Assembly: GCF_009695545.1 (NCBI RefSeq)
Contig: NZ_VUNS01000001.1
Location: forward strand, 1-64,000
Source of the DNA: Victivallis lenta
Lineage (GTDB): Bacteria; Verrucomicrobiota; Lentisphaeria; Victivallales; Victivallaceae
Reading direction: 5' to 3'
Length of the DNA: 64,000 nucleotides
Below, piece by piece: positions 3,213 to 38,262 of this stretch (positions are counted from its first letter, which is position 1; every line of letters begins with the position of its first letter). The notes under the pieces were generated by a model. It worked only from the letters and a program-made list of their open reading frames with translations, made no database searches and was not told the origin of the DNA. Position numbers and translations under genes: made by a program.

Positions 3213-3230
3213 GATATGTTATGTCATATC
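3213..3230. repeat. Probable left-end hairpin of the IS200-like element
   Basis: GATATG and CATATC flank a six-base loop. The ATG that should start the transposase lies inside this hairpin on the minus strand, and the premature stop lies in its loop. Confidence 0.5.
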
Positions 3231-3691
3231 TAGTAATATAGCTTCTGGTTGTGGGTGGAAACGGCGATGTTCAATGTCCGCATATGCTGTGCATATTCAT
3301 CGGCAATCTGACTGGTAATATCCCGTAGTGTCTTACCGGGATCGTCGATCCAGTTCACGAACTCTTCGAAGGTAGAGCGATAGGCAAGTGCTTCGCTCAC
3401 TGTATCAGGAGTAGCGCGTTCAGGACTTCTCTCATAGATGGCCCATGCTTCGGAAAGCAGCAGATTCTTTTCGGGAGTGATAAGACCACGTGCATGTTTG
3501 ATGTGAGCTGCAATGATTTCAGCGGAAGTTGCTTTCAGAAGTGGAATCTGTTTGTTTGCTTCTTTCTGGTTACGGGTTTTAAGGCTGATTGCCTTGCGTG
3601 CTCCGTTGACCTGATAGCGGAAATAATAGATTCCACCTTCCTCTTTCTGGTAGACGGTTCCGAGATCGAGTTTGATTTTTTGGATGGCCAT
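3230..3691 (-). pseudogene. Tyrosine recombinase (integrase), truncated after the core-binding domain
   Basis: The 153-aa fragment has the N-terminal arm-binding region and the start of the SAM-like core-binding domain (GKTLRDITSQIADEYAQHM, then STHNQKL), then stops where the IS200-like element begins. The whole catalytic half with the R-K-H-x-x-R-H-Y residues is missing. It shares the motif ATSAE(I/V)IAAH with the fragment at 37.8-38.07 kb, so both come from related integrases. Its start is about 110 bp from a copy of the tRNA-Ser 3' end (3801), the same spacing seen beside tRNA-Lys. That suggests it belonged to an element extending left out of the window. It is not functional. Confidence 0.85.
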
Positions 3692-4046: not shown

Positions 4047-5579
4047 TTAAATATAGTATTTAAACGCCAATGGTGGGGTTTTCAACTCAGGACAAGCTGT
4101 AAGGATTTCTCCGACTTTGTCTGCAAAGCGTAGCGTTACCGGTATTCCATCCCCATATATACATGCGTTATAATTAAGTTTTGTCAACGACAGAATGTCT
4201 GTCGCAACAACTTTGAGATCAGCGACACCTTTATCTATTCTAATTTGGATAGGTCTTGGTATCTCCATCGCTGATGTTGTTTGAAGCCTTGGTATATATC
4301 CAGTAGTCCAAAGCAAGCATTCCCACTTGTTAATAATATGAAACATCCCACGCGGAATGGGGTAATCTCCGTCTTTTCGATATAATTTCAATGGTTCTCG
4401 GTTGGATATTGTTATTCCTACGATGTTCGTTTCAGAAGGAGTAACACTTTTAAATGCTGCCCACTCTTCTTCGTTGAATCTTGTTTTCGCATGAATAAAA
4501 ATTTCTGCTGGCGCTTTGTTCATAATACTTCTATACGAGTCTAGTGCTTGAGTGAGCAATTGTTTAGCTTCTCGTTCCTGGAGATGATATTCTTTGGTTT
4601 CTGGATTGAACCATGGTCCTACTTCCCCGCGAAAAATGGTACCATCACCACTATCTAAAAACATCTGAGCCGCACAACAAGCGTTTCTCACATCTTTTGT
4701 ATTAGATAATTGTTTATAGACCAAACCAAGATAGCAAACTCCTGCCCTTATATCTGACAACTTCCATGGCTTACCGCCAGCTTTATAGTATGCGGCCGTA
4801 GAAATAGACCATGCTTGGTGCCCTTCTATCTTTGAAAAATCATGAAGATACTTCCCGCGAGTATCAGTAAATGCTCGCCATGCGATCTTACTCTCACGCA
4901 GTATCTGTGTGGGAATTGAATAGGGAAGTAAGCGAGCTTTTAATTGATCATGAAATTGGGCATCATAACTATATTTCTTTACTTCATCGGCTTTTTTATC
5001 TTCTTCCGCCCGCATATCCGAAAATAGATAATCCGTATAAGAAAATATTTTTGCTTTAGCCTTAGAAAGCAAACTTCGTCTTTTGATTAGCTCTTTAGGG
5101 ATTGTTGATTTGGGACGGCAATATTTGTGAATAATATCAGGAACAATAATGAACCAAACATCTATGTTTTCATCGTCATTTTTCTTTGAATTGACTATTG
5201 GCTCTATGAATAAACTCACCATGTCGTAAGTGCGCACATGTGTACTATCAACATACAAAAACTCATTAATTTTTTCTTGAGATATTTCTTTAAATAGGAT
5301 ATGGTCTGGACTCCAACTACATCCAAATGCAGCTTCAAATCCAGGAAAAAATGGTCTACTGATTGAATTACTATTATAAACTGGAGACTGAATGCTTTTT
5401 AAAAAATTCTGAAAATATTTATACCCTTCCTTGGTTGCTACTACTCCACTTCGTATCTCTCTAATTGCCGAAGGTAATGGCCCAAACAGTGTAAGCCCAT
5501 CTCTCGGATCAGGCATTTTCTGGCCATGTCCTAATAAGATATTGGGTTCTGGAATATATGATAATTTACGCATCGGCAC
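4047..5579 (-). CDS. Short prokaryotic Argonaute (MID-PIWI), SPARTA-type
   Basis: At 510 aa this has the usual length of short pAgos, which contain only MID and PIWI domains. The N-terminal segment (residues 8-37), with EPNILLGHG and then DPRDGLTLFGPL, is the recognisable PIWI/MID entry region. The C-terminus ends in a hydrophobic tail (AFKYYI), as is common in Argonautes. I do not see an ordered DEDX tetrad, which agrees with the catalytically dead PIWI of short pAgos, though I could not align it. It overlaps the TIR-APAZ gene by 14 bp, implying translational coupling. In characterised SPARTA systems the pAgo and TIR-APAZ proteins form a heterodimer; guide RNA pairing with target DNA triggers oligomerisation and NAD(P)+ breakdown, killing the cell before an invading plasmid or phage spreads. 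That role is inferred here from family and gene order. Confidence 0.88.
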   Translation of the reverse strand: MPMRKLSYIPEPNILLGHGQKMPDPRDGLTLFGPLPSAIREIRSGVVATKEGYKYFQNFLKSIQSPVYNSNSISRPFFPGFEAAFGCSWSPDHILFKEISQEKINEFLYVDSTHVRTYDMVSLFIEPIVNSKKNDDENIDVWFIIVPDIIHKYCRPKSTIPKELIKRRSLLSKAKAKIFSYTDYLFSDMRAEEDKKADEVKKYSYDAQFHDQLKARLLPYSIPTQILRESKIAWRAFTDTRGKYLHDFSKIEGHQAWSISTAAYYKAGGKPWKLSDIRAGVCYLGLVYKQLSNTKDVRNACCAAQMFLDSGDGTIFRGEVGPWFNPETKEYHLQEREAKQLLTQALDSYRSIMNKAPAEIFIHAKTRFNEEEWAAFKSVTPSETNIVGITISNREPLKLYRKDGDYPIPRGMFHIINKWECLLWTTGYIPRLQTTSAMEIPRPIQIRIDKGVADLKVVATDILSLTKLNYNACIYGDGIPVTLRFADKVGEILTACPELKTPPLAFKYYI

Positions 5580-6915
5580 TCTCCGTATTAGTATTCATTA
5601 GAGAGTCTCCTTGTTTTTCTATATCAGTTTCGATGAATTCATCATCCAAATTATTATTTTTAGGCAATTTGTAACTAATTGGAGATTGAAATTGAATTGA
5701 TGTTGCTGAGATTAGAAATTTTTTCTCATTCCCCAAAGAAAAAGTCATGCAGTCAGTGTCTTTAGATAAAAACGTGACAAAAGCAAATAATCGATTTCTC
5801 CAGTCTTTATTCCACCAGCTTTTTCCTTTTGTTCGTCGTGCAGAATGTTGAATACCATCTTCTCTAATCAAGGTCTGACCATCTGTTGTAAATACTATAT
5901 GAGAACGAATTTGTAATAATGGTTCTGGAAATAATTTTACAGATGCTGAAATAGCAAAGTGCCACATCTTATCTTTTTGTTTGCCTACAAGCTGAATTCT
6001 GCCAATTTTATTTTTAGGAATTACATCCGCAGGTAGCCAAAAAGCATAATGTCCCGACATTAGGTACGATCTTATTCCAGCAGTTTGTTTCAATGTATAG
6101 CCAAAAGCTTTATTTAGAATTTCAATGAGTAGTAATTTTGCCTGTTTTTTATCTATGAAAAGTACGGTTATATTTTGATCTAAAATTTCTTGAGTTAACA
6201 AAATTTTAGGATTTTGATCTACTTTTTCAGATAAATCACTTGGTAGAGATTCGAAGCATTCAAAAGTGACCAAATACCCCTGATGTGTTGTTGCCGGAAT
6301 ACTGATATCCTTTTTGAAAGACGAATCAAAATTACCTTTAAGCTTGAAAAAAAACAATTCTTTGGGAAGCGTTGTGATCGGAAACCAATTTGAATCATAA
6401 AGTTCTGTTTTCCAAATCACGTTACTTTCTATATTCAATAAATCATGAATAAGTTGCGCAACTTTAGAGTAATTTTCTGGAGAACGAGGAATTTTTTGTT
6501 CTTCGAGTGATTTTAACAGAGCTTTTAAGCCAGTCGCCCAAGATGCAGTGAAGTCGATGGCATTTAGTCGAATAATATCAACATTAATGTCATCATAAGA
6601 GAGATTCGGGTCCACTTTTAATGGGCAAATAAAAGTATCATCATTTATCACTTTTTGTGCTTTTGAGGCTACTGCAATTTCCTTCAACACCCCAGGTGCA
6701 GAATTTGATTTTTCAGATAAGACCAACAGGAACTTACAGGTATTTTGTCTTATCTCAGTTTCAATCTCACGCCAAAAATCTCCGCCTTTTTTCAATTTCA
6801 AAAGATCGCACCAAACTTTATATCCCGCTGCCATTAATCTCAATGCAAGCCAACGAGTAAAAGTATCATCTGCAGGCGTTACTGCATGGCTTATGAAAAT
6901 AGTATTTTTTATCAC
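5566..6915 (-). CDS. TIR-APAZ protein, NADase effector subunit of SPARTA
   Basis: The 449-aa protein begins with a TIR domain (about residues 4-140). It shows the BB-like start IFISHA, the strand YKVWCDL, and GGDFWREIETEI, in which Glu50 is the best candidate for the NAD-cleaving residue, followed by KFLLVLS. Residues from about 150 to 430 fit an APAZ domain, the N-terminal-like Argonaute partner region that docks on short pAgos. The tail is acidic and probably disordered. The gene lies 24 bp after the XRE regulator and overlaps the pAgo gene, so the three make one operon. The fusion order and the overlap with a short pAgo identify it as the effector of a SPARTA system. A SIR2-APAZ alternative is ruled out because the N-terminus is TIR. 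Confidence 0.88.
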   Translation of the reverse strand: MIKNTIFISHAVTPADDTFTRWLALRLMAAGYKVWCDLLKLKKGGDFWREIETEIRQNTCKFLLVLSEKSNSAPGVLKEIAVASKAQKVINDDTFICPLKVDPNLSYDDINVDIIRLNAIDFTASWATGLKALLKSLEEQKIPRSPENYSKVAQLIHDLLNIESNVIWKTELYDSNWFPITTLPKELFFFKLKGNFDSSFKKDISIPATTHQGYLVTFECFESLPSDLSEKVDQNPKILLTQEILDQNITVLFIDKKQAKLLLIEILNKAFGYTLKQTAGIRSYLMSGHYAFWLPADVIPKNKIGRIQLVGKQKDKMWHFAISASVKLFPEPLLQIRSHIVFTTDGQTLIREDGIQHSARRTKGKSWWNKDWRNRLFAFVTFLSKDTDCMTFSLGNEKKFLISATSIQFQSPISYKLPKNNNLDDEFIETDIEKQGDSLMNTNTESADA

Positions 6916-7691: not shown

Positions 7692-7814
7692 GTGGAAGAT
7701 AAAATCACGGTGGTCGCGAGAATTGTTGCGATGGCAATCCTTCAGAAGAAATTACGGCGTGTTCGAAATCAAATAAAAGCAGCGAGGGAAAAGCAATGCA
7801 AACAGAAGAATTAA
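7692..7814 (+). CDS. Small basic protein, 40 aa, first gene of the recombinase operon
   Basis: The frame starts at GTG, five bases after a strong AAGGAGG site. It encodes a 40-residue protein with a hydrophobic stretch followed by a Lys/Arg-rich helix (LQKKLRRVRNQIKAAREKQ). It overlaps the DUF2924 gene by 19 bp. Nothing identifies a function. The strong ribosome-binding site and the overlap suggest it is really translated, perhaps as a coupling leader or a small DNA-binding accessory factor. Confidence 0.5.
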   Translation: MEDKITVVARIVAMAILQKKLRRVRNQIKAAREKQCKQKN

Positions 7815-8206
7815 TATCTGTCTTTTCGAAGTTGGAAGAAATGTCCCTGAATGAATTACGAGATTTCTGGCAAGAGAGATTTCACACACGAGCACCGGGG
7901 TTGTCGCGGCATTTTCTTCGTAAGCGTATCGCTTTTTTACTTCAAGAACAGAAATATGGAGGTTATTCCGATTTTGTGCGAACTCAGGTTTTGCATATAG
8001 CTTCTCAAGAACCGATAACTTTAAATTCCAAAGGATTTGAAGTTGGAAAAGTATTTTCTCGTGTCTGGCAAGGGACCTTGTATCGGATAGTTGCCGTTGA
8101 GAATGGATTTAGAATGAATGGGAAATTATATCGTTCTCTGAGTGGAGCAGCCTTTGCCATAACAGGAACTCAATGGAGTGGAAAAGTTTTTTGGAGGATA
8201 AAATGA
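7796..8206 (+). CDS. DUF2924 family protein
   Basis: This 136-aa protein fits the DUF2924 family, small proteins that regularly precede large serine recombinases in integrated elements. Recognisable parts are the N-terminal LRDFWQERFHTRAPG, the following SRHFLRKRIAFLLQE helix, and the C-terminal region with YRSLSGAAFAITGTQWSGKVFW, which resembles a small DNA-binding fold (Trp- and Gly-rich, SLS-x-A-A). Its stop overlaps the recombinase start (ATGA), so the two are translationally coupled. A role as recombination directionality or accessory factor is plausible but unproven. Confidence 0.8.
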   Translation: MQTEELISVFSKLEEMSLNELRDFWQERFHTRAPGLSRHFLRKRIAFLLQEQKYGGYSDFVRTQVLHIASQEPITLNSKGFEVGKVFSRVWQGTLYRIVAVENGFRMNGKLYRSLSGAAFAITGTQWSGKVFWRIK

Positions 8207-10065
8207 TAAAACAGAAAAGATGTGCTATTTATACCCGTAAAAGTGTTGAAGATGGATTGGAGCAAGAGTTTAATTCATTAGACGCACAGCGTTCGTGTTG
8301 CCAGAATTATATTGATTTGCAGGAGTATGACGGTTGGATATGCCTGCCTAAACATTACGATGATGGCGGATGGTCTGGAGGGAATACGGATCGGCCTGCT
8401 TTTATGCAACTTCTTGAAGACATTGAAGCGAAGTTGATTGATATTGTTGTTGTTTACAAGGTCGATAGGCTATCCAAATCAATGATTGATTTTATCAAAA
8501 TAAACAATTACTTCGATCAGCATAATGTTACACTGGTTTCTGTTACTCAAGCGATAGACAGGAATTCAGCATCCGGCAATTTACATTGGCATTCTCTCGT
8601 TTCGTATGCACAATATGAGCGTGAAATTATTTCGGAGCGTGTGCGTGATAAAATCGCGGAAAGCAGACGAATGGGAAAATATTATGGAGGAATGACTCCA
8701 TATGGTTACAAGCGAAATGAACAGACACGCCGTCTTGATATTGATTTGTCAGAAGCCAGAGTTGTCCGCTGGATATTCAAAAACTATCTTAAAATGCGTT
8801 CGTGCGGTTTGGTCGCAGCAACACTGAACATGAGAGGAAAGAAAACACGTCGTTGGGTTTCCGTTCGGAATATTCCTCATGGTGGCAAGATCTGGAATCT
8901 TCTGGCAATCCACAAAATTATAACCAATCCGATTTATATTGGCATCATTCAGCATCATGAAGAAAAATACCCGGGAGAACACCAGCCCATTATATCTCAA
9001 GATATTTGGGATCAAGCGCAAGATATTCTTGCCCAAAATCGCCATAGTCATGGAACGTATTCCAAATTACGACAATTTGCTATTTTTACCACATTAGTAA
9101 AATGCGGAGAGTGTGATTGCGCATTAACTCCTACTTATACAGACAAAAACAGAAAGCGTTATTTTTATTATGTCTGTCAGAAAGCAATGAAATATCCAGA
9201 TCATATTTGTAACCTGAAGAAGATTTCTGCGGGAGAGATGGAAAAATTAATCTGTCATCAGTTGGCCTTTATTCTCCAATCATATTCATTGCGAACAGCA
9301 ATTATTCGGGAACTCGAAACAGGTCAACGTGAATATTGTAAAAAATTTGTCAAAGAGCGTTCTGCATTGCGTCAAATGCTGAAATATGTAAAGGATGAAG
9401 ATACACGACAAGAGCAAGAAAAGAGAATTGCAGAAATCAACAGTTGCCTGATTAATTGTCAGAAAAAAATCCGGCAGAGTAAAATTGATCACGATATTGA
9501 TCAATTTTACCCAATCTGGAACCTTATGTCTCCTCAAAGCAAAACAGAGTTTTTAGATTCGCTAATTGAAGAGATAAGGATTTATCCTACTAAAGTTCAA
9601 CTTTTCCTGAGTAAAGAGTTTTACAGTCTGAAGGAAGAAATTAGCAGCCGTTTACGGAAAGAGCGAAGTCTGTCGTTCGTTTCTTTCGAAAATGAACGTC
9701 TGCTTTTTGAATCCCCAATAAGTCAGCATCGTGTCAATGGTCAAAATCACCTGGAGATGGCGGGTATTAATTATAATGATAATCGTCGTTGTTTGTTACA
9801 CGCGATTGCAATTTCATGGAAATGGAACGAATTACTCTGTTCCGGCTCGCTGAAGAATATTTCTGACCTAGCCCGCTATGTTAAATTCAGCGAACCATAT
9901 GTACATAGGGTTTTGGCATTAAGCAATCTTGCTCCAAGTATCGTTGAAGATATTGTCAATGGTAATATTCCAGACGCCTTAAGTTTGGCACGGCTGCATG
10001 AAGGATTTCCGGATGATTGGAATGAACAGCGCAAAAAATTAGGTTTTATAATCGAAAACAGCTGA
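8203..10065 (+). CDS. Large serine recombinase (site-specific integrase)
   Basis: A 620-aa large serine recombinase. The resolvase domain covers about residues 5-150, with the nucleophile Ser14 in YTRKS, DAQR, DDGGWSGGNTDRPAF and the VYKVDRLSKS arginine motif. A recombinase DNA-binding domain follows (about 165-270), then a zinc ribbon (CGECDCALTP, then YYVCQKA and a later Cys) and a coiled-coil region (about 355-430). The C-terminus adds a ParB/HTH-like segment. I chose the start at MIKQKRCAIYTRKS because it overlaps the previous stop as ATGA and the motif spacing is then normal. It lies next to the intact tRNA-Ser att site and is the likely enzyme that inserted this island. Confidence 0.92.
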   Translation: MIKQKRCAIYTRKSVEDGLEQEFNSLDAQRSCCQNYIDLQEYDGWICLPKHYDDGGWSGGNTDRPAFMQLLEDIEAKLIDIVVVYKVDRLSKSMIDFIKINNYFDQHNVTLVSVTQAIDRNSASGNLHWHSLVSYAQYEREIISERVRDKIAESRRMGKYYGGMTPYGYKRNEQTRRLDIDLSEARVVRWIFKNYLKMRSCGLVAATLNMRGKKTRRWVSVRNIPHGGKIWNLLAIHKIITNPIYIGIIQHHEEKYPGEHQPIISQDIWDQAQDILAQNRHSHGTYSKLRQFAIFTTLVKCGECDCALTPTYTDKNRKRYFYYVCQKAMKYPDHICNLKKISAGEMEKLICHQLAFILQSYSLRTAIIRELETGQREYCKKFVKERSALRQMLKYVKDEDTRQEQEKRIAEINSCLINCQKKIRQSKIDHDIDQFYPIWNLMSPQSKTEFLDSLIEEIRIYPTKVQLFLSKEFYSLKEEISSRLRKERSLSFVSFENERLLFESPISQHRVNGQNHLEMAGINYNDNRRCLLHAIAISWKWNELLCSGSLKNISDLARYVKFSEPYVHRVLALSNLAPSIVEDIVNGNIPDALSLARLHEGFPDDWNEQRKKLGFIIENS

Positions 10066-10239: not shown

Positions 10240-10254
10240 AAAATGGCGGAGAGA
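10240..10254. repeat. tRNA-proximal attachment core
   Basis: This 15-bp sequence (AAAATGGCGGAGAGA) covers the 3' end of tRNA-Ser(GCT), including its encoded CCA, and is identical to 3801-3815. It is the tRNA-side junction of the island. Confidence 0.7.
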
Positions 10255-10333
10255 GAGGGATTCGAACCCTCGGTGAGATTTCTCCCACGCAGGTTTAGCA
10301 AACCTGTGCTTTCGGCCACTCAGCCATCTCTCC
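10244..10333 (-). tRNA. tRNA-Ser(GCT)
   Basis: A 90-nt class II tRNA with acceptor GGAGAGA/TCTCTCC, discriminator G and encoded CCA. The anticodon loop is TTGCTAA (anticodon GCT) between CAGGT and ACCTG. It has a long variable arm typical of serine tRNAs and a GGTTCGAATCC T-arm. It is complete, so island insertion preserved the gene. Confidence 0.95.
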
Positions 10334-34341: not shown

Positions 34342-34360
34342 AAAAATGGTGCGCTCACGG
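34342..34360. repeat. Distal attachment site (tRNA-Lys 3' end copy)
   Basis: Nineteen bases identical to 38182-38200, without the rest of the tRNA. Marks the left end of the island. Confidence 0.85.
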
Positions 34361-34487
34361 AAAACGGAGAACCGCCAGACTTCAGATGTAAAGTCACTTT
34401 TTACGCCAAAAGAAATGTCACAAGTATCACAGGAAGTCAACTCTAAACGATACTGATGAATATGTCTAATGGTACTCTGCGGTACTT

Positions 34488-36443
34488 TCATTTACATAGA
34501 CTTTTAGGATTCGATGGAAATAGATGAGGAGTACAGTCAATTACAACAATACGTATTGTTTTGCCATGTCGAGGTGACTTTCTTTCCAAATCAATTTTCA
34601 TTTCTTCTATATTACTATATTGAGAAGGATAAGGGTATTGTTTTGTTTTGAACCAAAAAATTAGAAAAATACCGTATCGAATATTCTCAGCCTGCATATA
34701 TTGTGGCAACTGCTGTTCCAAGCCGTGAATTAAATGTGGATGGTCTGCTTTTTTCATCTCGACAGCAATTTGTAGTGCACTCCCTTTTGAGGACGTTGCA
34801 GAACAGTGAAAATCTAAGGACCCATTACAACAAACAACTTCTCGGTTTATTGTTATTCCCATAAGGTGAAGTGGGATACGCAACTGATTATATACAAAGG
34901 GTTGTAATGCAGGTTCAGATAAAGGATGTCCATCCATATCAGAAAAATATGAACGACATCCACCATACTCAATTGCATTACCGACTGCATCATGCAAGAG
35001 CCTGACTAAAGTATCTAACATGTCCCTTCCAGACATAAAAAAAATCTTATCTGCAATAATCTTTCTTATAGCAGTTATTGAATCCAAAGCATTACAAACC
35101 GTTGCTTTATAATTGTTTCTTGCTTTCTCATATGAATTGGGATTCGTTAATAAATATGCCTCGAAACAAATGGTATTTCGAATATCGTTCTGAAAATATT
35201 GTATTTTAAAATTCGAAAATAGATCTATCGTAATATCGCTCAGATAAATTTTTAAAACATCCTTTATTTCATTAAAGCTTTTACGTAATGTCGCAATAAC
35301 TTTTTCTTTATCATGTATCACCGTTCGCCCAAGTAATGCTTCCTGTTCCCTTACATCCTCAATATTTCTTGCGCCATCTTCACGAGAGGGAATTTTCACA
35401 TTTTGATATTTAACTTGAATATATGCTGCTTCAGAAGCATCATATATATCAGAAATGAAAACAGGAACAATCGGATAATCTATAGAGAAATCCGTGGCAA
35501 TTTCTGTAAATGGATCTTTAAAAGGGTCGGCCTCGATATCTTCAACTTTTATAGCAACCGAGTCATTTACAATAATTTCTTTGGGACAGATACATTGGAA
35601 CGGAACAATAAACTGTATTATTTGTGTTCCAAAAGTCGGTGCATTTTCCTTTGGTAAGGTTCGAAAATGAGGAGAAAATACTTTAAATTCGTTGAAATAA
35701 TCCTGTTGCAAATAATACTTTTCTTCGTCAGAAAATAATATCTCGTTTTTCTCTATTAGTTCCTCAATACACGAATGATCTTCTAGAGAATATTTTTTAT
35801 TTAATAGTATATATTTAATAAGCAATAATTTTTTTAGATCAGTTATTTGACAATTACCACCAAAATCTTCGAAAAATCTATAAAGTTGAATTATCTTACG
35901 GTTATAGACATAAATTCGTTCTAAGGAATCTAGGATCAAGTTAAAAGTCTGAACAATACTACTTTTTTGATCTTCACCCCAAGAACTGCTTCGGAATTTG
36001 CAACAAAGGAGAAGATCGTTTTCTATTTGTTTGCACCAAACTTCAGCAGAGCTAATTTGGGGACTTATTTGTGGTTGAGAAAAAACCCCATATTCAATAT
36101 TCAAAATATGACAAATGAATTTTATTTTCTCACTATTACTAGAACTGATACAATGATCACAAAATGTATGATTAGCTCGCTGAGCACCAAGAATACTTGC
36201 AGAATCTTTCAAAACATTAGTTAAATATCTCCCTATGACAAAAATATCGGAGAGAAGATACTCTTTCGGAATAAGATCTATTACAAGAGATAATTTATAA
36301 TTTTTTAATTTTTCAAAATTTGTTTCTAGAAGATATAAATAAAGTCGGTAATACTTCAATAATTCCTTCTGAGAATATTTTTCAGGAGAACACATCCCCT
36401 CTAATATTTTCTGTATTCCGTTTTCTATTAAAGAATTATGCAT
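34488..36443 (-). CDS. Orphan AT-rich protein with C-terminal PD-(D/E)XK-like nuclease signature
   Basis: The 651-aa protein is not a family I recognise. Residues 1-270 are strongly helical with Leu/Tyr/Lys-rich segments. The middle (about 275-400) looks beta-rich with PIVPVFISDIYD. The C-terminus (533-610) has the order of a PD-(D/E)XK core: Asp544 in GSLDFHC, Glu562 and Lys564 in LQIAVEMKK, then a helix HGLEQQLPQYM whose Gln578 and Tyr582 match the Q-x-x-x-Y motif of many restriction-like nucleases, then strand YGIFLIFWF. There is no signal peptide. It is the only intact gene of the island and has much lower GC than its neighbours. A single-gene defence nuclease or restriction-like enzyme is the best guess; it could also be a nuclease with a transposon role. 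Confidence 0.72.
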   Translation of the reverse strand: MHNSLIENGIQKILEGMCSPEKYSQKELLKYYRLYLYLLETNFEKLKNYKLSLVIDLIPKEYLLSDIFVIGRYLTNVLKDSASILGAQRANHTFCDHCISSSNSEKIKFICHILNIEYGVFSQPQISPQISSAEVWCKQIENDLLLCCKFRSSSWGEDQKSSIVQTFNLILDSLERIYVYNRKIIQLYRFFEDFGGNCQITDLKKLLLIKYILLNKKYSLEDHSCIEELIEKNEILFSDEEKYYLQQDYFNEFKVFSPHFRTLPKENAPTFGTQIIQFIVPFQCICPKEIIVNDSVAIKVEDIEADPFKDPFTEIATDFSIDYPIVPVFISDIYDASEAAYIQVKYQNVKIPSREDGARNIEDVREQEALLGRTVIHDKEKVIATLRKSFNEIKDVLKIYLSDITIDLFSNFKIQYFQNDIRNTICFEAYLLTNPNSYEKARNNYKATVCNALDSITAIRKIIADKIFFMSGRDMLDTLVRLLHDAVGNAIEYGGCRSYFSDMDGHPLSEPALQPFVYNQLRIPLHLMGITINREVVCCNGSLDFHCSATSSKGSALQIAVEMKKADHPHLIHGLEQQLPQYMQAENIRYGIFLIFWFKTKQYPYPSQYSNIEEMKIDLERKSPRHGKTIRIVVIDCTPHLFPSNPKSLCK

Positions 36444-36590
36444 AATAATTTCTTTCTGTATAATAAAATGATATATGAGTTAATATACACCTCGGGATAA
36501 ATTTGACAACCGCAGATGGTACTCGGTGGTACTTCTAAAGGTATTTTCGGGCGTGAATGTGGTGCCTTGGTAGAGAACGGAGCTACATGA

Positions 36591-36635
36591 AAAACTCCTT
36601 CCTGAAGCGTTTGGCGCGATTCGGGAAGGAGTTTT
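36591..36635 (-). terminator. Intrinsic terminator of the fibronectin-like remnant
   Basis: AAAACTCCTTCC (36591-36602) and GGAAGGAGTTTT (36624-36635) form a 12-bp stem. On the minus strand it is followed by a T-run and lies about 17 bp after the 74-aa frame ends, so it would stop transcripts of that unit. Confidence 0.75.
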
Positions 36636-36903: not shown

Positions 36904-38072
36904 TTAGCTCTCGTTGCCCGCCGCGTCCACGGCGACAATCCGATACTGATAGCTGCCCTTGGCGATTCCGTCGATCCGGAAGCTCAGCTCGTTCGCCGCC
37001 AGGATTTCCGTATGTTCGAGGTTGACGCCGTACTTCAGAATATAGCCGGTCACGCCGACGTTGTCCTTCGGCGTTTTCCAGATCAGCAGCAGACTGTTTT
37101 CTTCGACTTTCGCCTTGATGGAGACATTTCCCGGCGCGGTCATGTCCTTGACGGTGAAAGTCTGCGCGTCACTCCATTTGCCGACATTTTTGTCTTTGTC
37201 GATGGCGCGGACTTTGCAGGGGTGCTCGCCGACCGACAGTTTGCTGACGTTCAGCATCGTCTTGCCCGATTTCAAAATCTTGCCGTCGTCGAGCTGGATT
37301 TCGTATTGCGCCACTTTGCCGGAGTTGTCCACGCCGGGATTCCACGAAAGCGTCGCCTTGTACTTGCTGTCCGCGACCGGGACGGCAAGCCCGGTCACCT
37401 GTTCCGGAGGCGTCGCGTCCTTGACCGTGAAGCTGACCTTCGTCTGCTTGCTCGCATTTCCTTCGGCGTCGTAGGTGACGACATAGGCGGTCTGCTTGCC
37501 GACTCCGAAATCGCTCAGAACGGCGGTGGAGGTCGTGGTTTCGACCGACTTGTCGCCACAGGTCACGATGTATTTCGCGATGCTGCCGGAGTTGTCCTTG
37601 CCGGAGAGCGCGAAATGGTGAAGGTCTGAACTTCGCTCCACTCTCCGATGTTCTTGTCCTTGTCGATGGCGCGGACTTTATAGGAGTGCTCGCCGACCGA
37701 CAGTTTGCTGACGTTCAGCATCGTCTTGCTCGATTTGAAGATTTTGCCGTCATCGAGCTGAATCTCGCAGGTCGCGGGAGTCGTGCGGCGCGGATGGCAG
37801 GAATAGAACTCCCTGACTTCACTTAAAGAAAGATTGCGTTCCACGGAACTCAGGCCGCGCGCCTGGCTGACGTGAGCGGCGATCACTTCGGCGCTGGTGG
37901 CCTGTACGATCGGACACAGAGCCTCCGCTTCCCGGATCGCTTCGACGCGATTGGCGGTTTGCAGGCTGACGGTTTTGCGGTGTCCGTCAAGCAGGTAGCG
38001 ATAAAAGTAGATTTTGCCCGGCTCTTTGGTGAAGATCGAGCCGACATTCAAACGTAAAGATTTCCCGGCCAC
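36904..38072 (-). pseudogene. Chimeric remnant: integrase N-terminus joined to frameshifted fibronectin-III-like repeats
   Basis: From 38072 the frame reads a tyrosine-integrase N-terminus (MAGKSLRLNVGSIFTKEPG to about residue 100, ATSAEVIAAHVSQARGL). It then switches within one frame to a fibronectin-III-like repeat (CEIQLDDGKIFKSSKTML). About 50 residues later a frameshift near 37620 ends it, and the repeats continue in another frame (36904-37641) with three more units containing AIDKDKNVG and VDAAGNES. Two units are nearly identical at DNA level (about 37.18-37.30 and 37.65-37.77 kb). The parent was probably a secreted repeat protein and a tRNA-Lys integrase joined by deletion. No catalytic part of the integrase remains. 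Confidence 0.8.
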
Positions 38073-38181
38073 GGAGTTGCCCTTTCATTTCGGTATCGTC
38101 CACAGCCAAAAATAAATTTTCTGAAGGCAAAAGAAATACCTCAGTGGTACTTGATGGTACCTGCTGAGGCAGTCTGAGGCG

Positions 38182-38200
38182 AAAAATGGTGCGCTCACGG
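38182..38200. repeat. tRNA-proximal attachment site
   Basis: The 19-bp core repeat at the 3' end of tRNA-Lys, identical to 34342-34360. Confidence 0.85.
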
Positions 38201-38262
38201 GGACTCGAACCCAGGACCCAGTGATTAAGAGTCACTTGCTCTACCAACTGAGCTATGAGCGC
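38187..38262 (-). tRNA. tRNA-Lys(CTT)
   Basis: A 76-nt tRNA with acceptor GCGCTCA/TGAGCGC, discriminator A and encoded CCA. The D-arm is AGCTCAGTTGGTAGAGC. The anticodon stem AGTGA/TCACT has loop CTCTTAA (anticodon CTT), and the T-arm is GGGTTCGAGTCC. It is complete despite island insertion at its 3' end. Confidence 0.95.

Follow-up and report, generated by a model that had tools for sequence, protein, structure and literature searches.

EruA and HyoA (NCBIfam NF058535 and NF058534) are NACHT antiphage proteins whose models span 1,318 and 1,430 positions, respectively, with a NACHT NTPase at the N-terminus; a literature search did not find a paper describing them, and their names rest on NCBIfam. 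PDC-M36A-like proteins, a PADLOC candidate system found on plasmids, in phages, and in Clostridia, carry a nuclease module behind an N-terminus of ~330 aa ("VDTxLFIDP ... GxDxISDLT"). Hachiman HamA, which has a defence role, acts with the helicase HamB, and BamHI, SwaI, and EcoRV are type II restriction endonucleases. Here we compare these systems with a 651-aa protein encoded in a stretch of 64,000 nucleotides from Victivallis lenta (contig NZ_VUNS01000001.1, positions 1 to 64,000; the window). We propose that its gene, which persists in the remains of an integrative element at tRNA-Lys, probably encodes a self-contained sensor-nuclease directed against phages, a defence role to which the relatives of its nuclease module point.

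The gene for this putative sensor-nuclease (34488–36443, reverse strand) starts with ATG and runs for 651 codons with no internal stop, an open run with a chance of ~5e-24 given the base composition of the gene stretch; the other five frames contain 32–60 stops each. Its GC content of 0.32 and GC3 of 0.23, against 0.58 for the window minus the island, confirm the initial annotation's description of a gene far more AT-rich than its surroundings and therefore point to a foreign origin, such that the gene was most likely acquired from elsewhere. A candidate promoter, TTGTCA-16-TATATT (36482–36509, reverse strand), lies ~38 bp before the ATG and has the top score in the region with 10 of 12 matches, a score that is not in itself evidence of function. 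Judged from the neighbouring open reading frames, the adjoining genes are metabolic and form no defence island, a setting that speaks against a defence role, and no helicase was seen among them.

The tail of ~160 residues is, by its predicted fold and its residues, a PD-(D/E)XK nuclease module (aa ~487–645; 34509–34985, reverse strand), delimited by homology to EruA and M36A-like proteins, a structural model, and VIA-align. An AlphaFold model of the domain, made with a 16-sequence alignment (pLDDT 83), presents in order a helix (41–58 in the domain model), three strands (62–65, 76–81, and 87–96), a helix (102–115), and a strand (121–128), corresponding to the alpha-beta-beta-beta-alpha-beta core of PD-(D/E)XK enzymes. 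At strands 2 and 3 stand the predicted catalytic residues: the Asp D544 (34812–34814, reverse strand, as are all residues given here) and the E-x-K formed by E562-M-K564 (34752–34760). D544, E562, and K564 are kept in 16 of 16 aligned sequences, as are E510, where the first core helix begins (34914–34916), Q514, E535 ahead of the catalytic Asp (34839–34841), and Q578 (34710–34712); Y582 (34698–34700) is conserved in at least 90% of the 16. The D-(17)-E-x-K and Q-x-x-x-Y signatures read in the initial annotation are present as D544-x17-E562-x-K564 and Q578-x3-Y582, and both are conserved in relatives. A Q-x3-Y following the E-x-K is a feature of the RecB/Cas4-like subgroup, a motif that alone is no proof of membership.

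Comparison of the domain model with solved structures pointed in the same direction. In Foldseek, all PDB matches lay above E 0.001 (best E 0.014), and a further match was to a viral protein with a "type IV Mrr domain"; VIA-align placed the model nearest to SwaI and BamHI (Z 8.2), EcoRV (7.7), BstYI (7.4), and EcoT38I (7.3), with OkrAI also within Z 7.4–8.2. Restriction endonucleases dominate these top neighbours, CdiA-CT toxin complexes are also present, and HamA and Can2, which are defence nucleases, follow lower, at Z 5.8. Because a Z of ~8, middling when taken alone, is accompanied by invariant catalytic residues, we consider the PD-(D/E)XK assignment secure; the earlier, putative call of this fold is upheld by the core in the domain model and by neighbours that are nearly all restriction endonucleases.

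When the full 651-aa protein was searched against Pfam, PADLOC, PHROGs, NCBIfam, and PDB sequences, the tail alone gave matches: EruA aligned with aa 497–637 (1.3e-11) at the extreme end of its model (positions 1173–1317 of 1318), HyoA with aa 552–620 (4e-6), and PHROG 30194 with the same tail. Exact-peptide scans of the collections with the full protein returned zero relatives. Relatives of the tail occur in Lentisphaera marina, on a Bradyrhizobium plasmid, in Nitrosospira, on Rhodobacter and Paenarthrobacter plasmids, in Clostridia, in NACHT proteins from the window's own phylum, and on IMG/VR viral contigs. With the window protein included, the module is found on at least five unrelated N-termini, the others being NACHT-type proteins of 1,275–1,445 aa, the N-terminal halves of which match EruA too; the 520-aa Bradyrhizobium plasmid protein WP_208089731.1, weakly squalene-cyclase-like (a cyclase-like toroid); M36A-like proteins of 458–496 aa; and a 377-aa protein from Clostridia (tail alignment E 6e-16). 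No Pfam PD-(D/E)XK model matched any module carrier scanned. The combination in WP_208089731.1 (L010, 8870–10432), a weak terpene-cyclase-like N-terminus on the same nuclease tail, makes that protein an odd sensor candidate in its own right.

The neighbourhoods of these carriers bear on the initial annotation's suggestion that homologues be sought in defence islands, and several carriers do adjoin known defence genes, in examples read from a handful of loci and not as a counted statistic against background. An EruA-like NACHT protein lies between a type I restriction HsdR and a HerA-like ATPase in a candidate defence island (L007, 3219–15068), and other carriers adjoin a Dsr1-like SIR2 (sirtuin) protein (L012), a run of methyltransferase, helicase, and GIY-YIG genes (L013), and DUF5343 (L021). 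Two phage copies, one between terminase-like and portal-like genes (L024) and one near a Zot-like gene (L023), with these identities read from translations, look like cargo. The homologues are antiphage or defence-linked and not of the unrelated function that had been named as counting against a defence system.

The window protein is not EruA or HyoA, not Hachiman, and not PDC-M36A; it carries the same effector cassette behind a different front part. It shares with EruA and HyoA the homologous C-terminal ~145 residues and the conserved D, E-x-K, and Q, but is 651 aa long, matches neither NACHT nor AAA at E values up to 10, and scores 43.4 bits against the EruA model, over the C-terminal 145 positions only, where the curated full-length cut-off is 1000 bits. 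PDC-M36A-like proteins have this module at an equivalent position (hhalign E 2.5e-10, aa 487–644), whereas their N-terminus has no detectable kinship to that of the window protein, which remained unmatched in PADLOC at E values up to 10. Among annotated records, the closest C-terminal match is WP_208089731.1 (32% over 105 aa), with a weakly squalene-hopene-cyclase-like N-terminus (Pfam E 0.009) unlike that of the window protein. Hachiman HamA shares the fold superfamily, but the 651-aa gene has no adjoining HamB or other helicase, and a PADLOC match to HamA is also absent. Among solved structures, the C-terminal domain is closest in fold to BamHI, SwaI, and EcoRV (Z 7.7–8.2), from which the 651-aa gene differs in lacking a paired methyltransferase and in its extra N-terminal part of 486 aa.

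This orphan N-terminal part (aa 1–486; 34986–36443, reverse strand), the presumed sensor or regulator, appears mostly helical with a possible beta-rich stretch, and is modelled at low confidence: the full-length AlphaFold model has a pLDDT of 49, with the N-terminal part mostly under 50. No credible relative of aa 1–~486 was found in more than 1,100 genomes, 72,556 plasmids, and 50,697 phages. The genomes were taken in overlapping draws: 388 from the phylum and 198 from the class of the window's own lineage, and 398 from the phylum and 391 from the class of a Clostridiales MAG. No other genome searched has the combination that makes up the full 651-aa architecture. The initial annotation's statement that the N-terminal 530 residues match no known family stands for ~486 of them; hhalign sets the boundary at ~487, not 530, and the tail beyond it is common to EruA, HyoA, and PHROG 30194. 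Several candidate likenesses were set aside. Weak matches outside the tail to Pfam HEPN (0.09), KIF26, and RING and to PDB PCNA (0.27) were dismissed as chance, as were five short matches at E ~1e-3 (aa 18–86 against frames of 139–150 aa), attributed to helical composition given the 398 genomes searched. A reading of the N-terminus as a diverged M36A-like domain is unsupported, since hhalign aligns aa 487–644 alone.

The gene lies in a 3.86-kb island remnant, both ends of which are formed by an exact 19-bp direct repeat, AAAAATGGTGCGCTCACGG. The left copy (34342–34360) and the right copy (38182–38200) reproduce the 3' end of the tRNA-Lys (CTT) gene detected by ARAGORN (38187–38262, reverse strand), the integration target, as in tRNA-targeted integrative elements. 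The arm-like motif GGTACTYNNTGGTACY, which the initial annotation does not mention, has three copies in the window (34471, 36518, and 38146), all of them within the island, against 0 expected in shuffles: one as the repeat ATGGTACTCTGCGGTACTT (GGTACTYNNTGGTACY, 1 mismatch; 34469–34487, forward strand), one as its second copy (36516–36534, forward strand), and one beside the tRNA end of the island (38146–38161, forward strand). These copies may represent integrase arm sites. Adjoining the tRNA-Lys gene is an N-terminal remnant of an integrase (37563–38072, reverse strand), 43–49% identical to the N-termini of open frames of 436–509 aa in the same genome, which runs into a fibronectin-III-like fragment. 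The island also contains a fibronectin-III fragment (36904–37641, reverse strand; Pfam fn3 1e-11), part of which recurs with 85% identity at 37617–37767. A 19-nt inverted repeat (36591–36635), a possible bidirectional terminator, is absent from the terminator-scan listing. As only this N-terminal remnant takes the place of a functional integrase, the element is a decayed one. The earlier reading of the nuclease as sole cargo is right in that it is the only intact gene in the island, and has to be qualified for the integrase and fibronectin-III fragments. The genome has a further tRNA-Lys (CTT) gene (L033, 11965–12145) with a single att copy and ~100 bp of this integrase junction sequence, which marks a place where an element of the same type has been emptied or has decayed. 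No empty site was found in the tRNA-Lys regions of four genomes of the same genus, where alignment was limited to the tRNA itself.

Further elements were observed in the window and the genome. A two-gene TIR-APAZ and short prokaryotic Argonaute (SPARTA-like) system (4047–6834, reverse strand; 508 aa, pAgo_I E 1e-187; 422 aa, Aga_TIR E 3e-110) occupies an AT-rich island near a tRNA-Ser gene, with an integrase remnant (3230–3691) of the same family as that in the tRNA-Lys island; this second island with defence cargo counts in favour of the defence role proposed for the 651-aa gene. A 136-aa gene and a 630-aa gene that by eye is large-serine-recombinase-like (7796–10065, forward strand) adjoin the tRNA-Ser gene (10244–10333). 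Elsewhere in the genome, elements with one integrase family are found at tRNA-Asn, tRNA-Arg, and tRNA-Leu (L058, 7564–17000; L061, 4322–13534; L059; L060; L062). Their integrase-like frames of 436–509 aa, just downstream of the tRNA, would be tyrosine recombinases judging from size, position, and N-terminal likeness. Two of these elements share further genes that by eye encode small excisionase-like, replication-like, and RecB-like proteins; possibly, elements with this gene set constitute a family of phage satellites in the phylum.

By analogy with the other module carriers, we infer a sensor role for the N-terminal part. In the mechanism that we propose, aa 1–~486 would bind either a product of the phage or a nucleic acid specific to infection and, until so triggered, would keep the nuclease silent by autoinhibition; once released, the C-terminal nuclease would cut DNA, its presumed substrate, with a divalent metal. 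The outcome would be destruction of phage DNA or of the infected cell's own DNA, the latter amounting to abortive infection. We assign recognition and self-protection to the N-terminal part because no methylase, helicase, or ATPase is linked to the gene. Abortive infection is a frequent mode of action of NACHT receptors and of other nucleases released by a trigger, and by that analogy we slightly favour it over direct restriction. Tentatively, and with less assurance than the defence role itself, the locus might define a one-gene, NTPase-free anti-phage system not described before, in which a new sensor domain of ~480 residues is joined to a shared, Pfam-less PD-(D/E)XK cassette that is swapped among NACHT receptors, cyclase-like toroids, and others.

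The main rival to this sensor-nuclease reading is a restriction enzyme that acts on its own and depends on modification (type IV-like): its N-terminus would read modified bases on incoming DNA while the C-terminal domain cuts nearby, acting directly and not through abortive infection. A single gene with no methyltransferase, a predicted fold resembling restriction endonucleases, and the Foldseek match to the viral Mrr-domain protein are all in keeping with such an enzyme. However, the 651-aa protein has no Pfam match to a modified-base reader domain at E up to 10, a result to be read with the poor N-terminal model in mind, and we consider this explanation unlikely.

The setting of the gene suggests other roles. 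As the sole intact gene remaining between the att repeats, together with what is left of a recombinase, the nuclease might serve the element itself in maintenance, replication, or the killing of cells that lose it. Yet the integrase is destroyed, so that the element is unable to move on its own, and the nuclease frame has nonetheless been kept; moreover, it has no partner gene at its side within the island, and module relatives reside in varied plasmids, phages, and chromosomes where a common mobility gene is absent. A service to the element is quite improbable on this evidence. The visible decay of the island and an architecture met in no other genome searched could also mean that the gene is a relic, a now non-functional nuclease tail that was fused or remained from some larger system; against this stand the intact 651-codon frame, the retention of all catalytic residues, and the promoter-like site upstream, which make loss of function very improbable.

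Under the favoured reading, an anti-phage sensor-nuclease, the tail module would be a plug-in effector common to very different putative immune receptors. Once defined, it offers a means of finding further defence proteins through the effector they carry and not through their gene neighbourhoods. The window protein would be the minimal, single-chain case without an NTPase, and as such useful for learning how a nuclease of this kind is held off and triggered.
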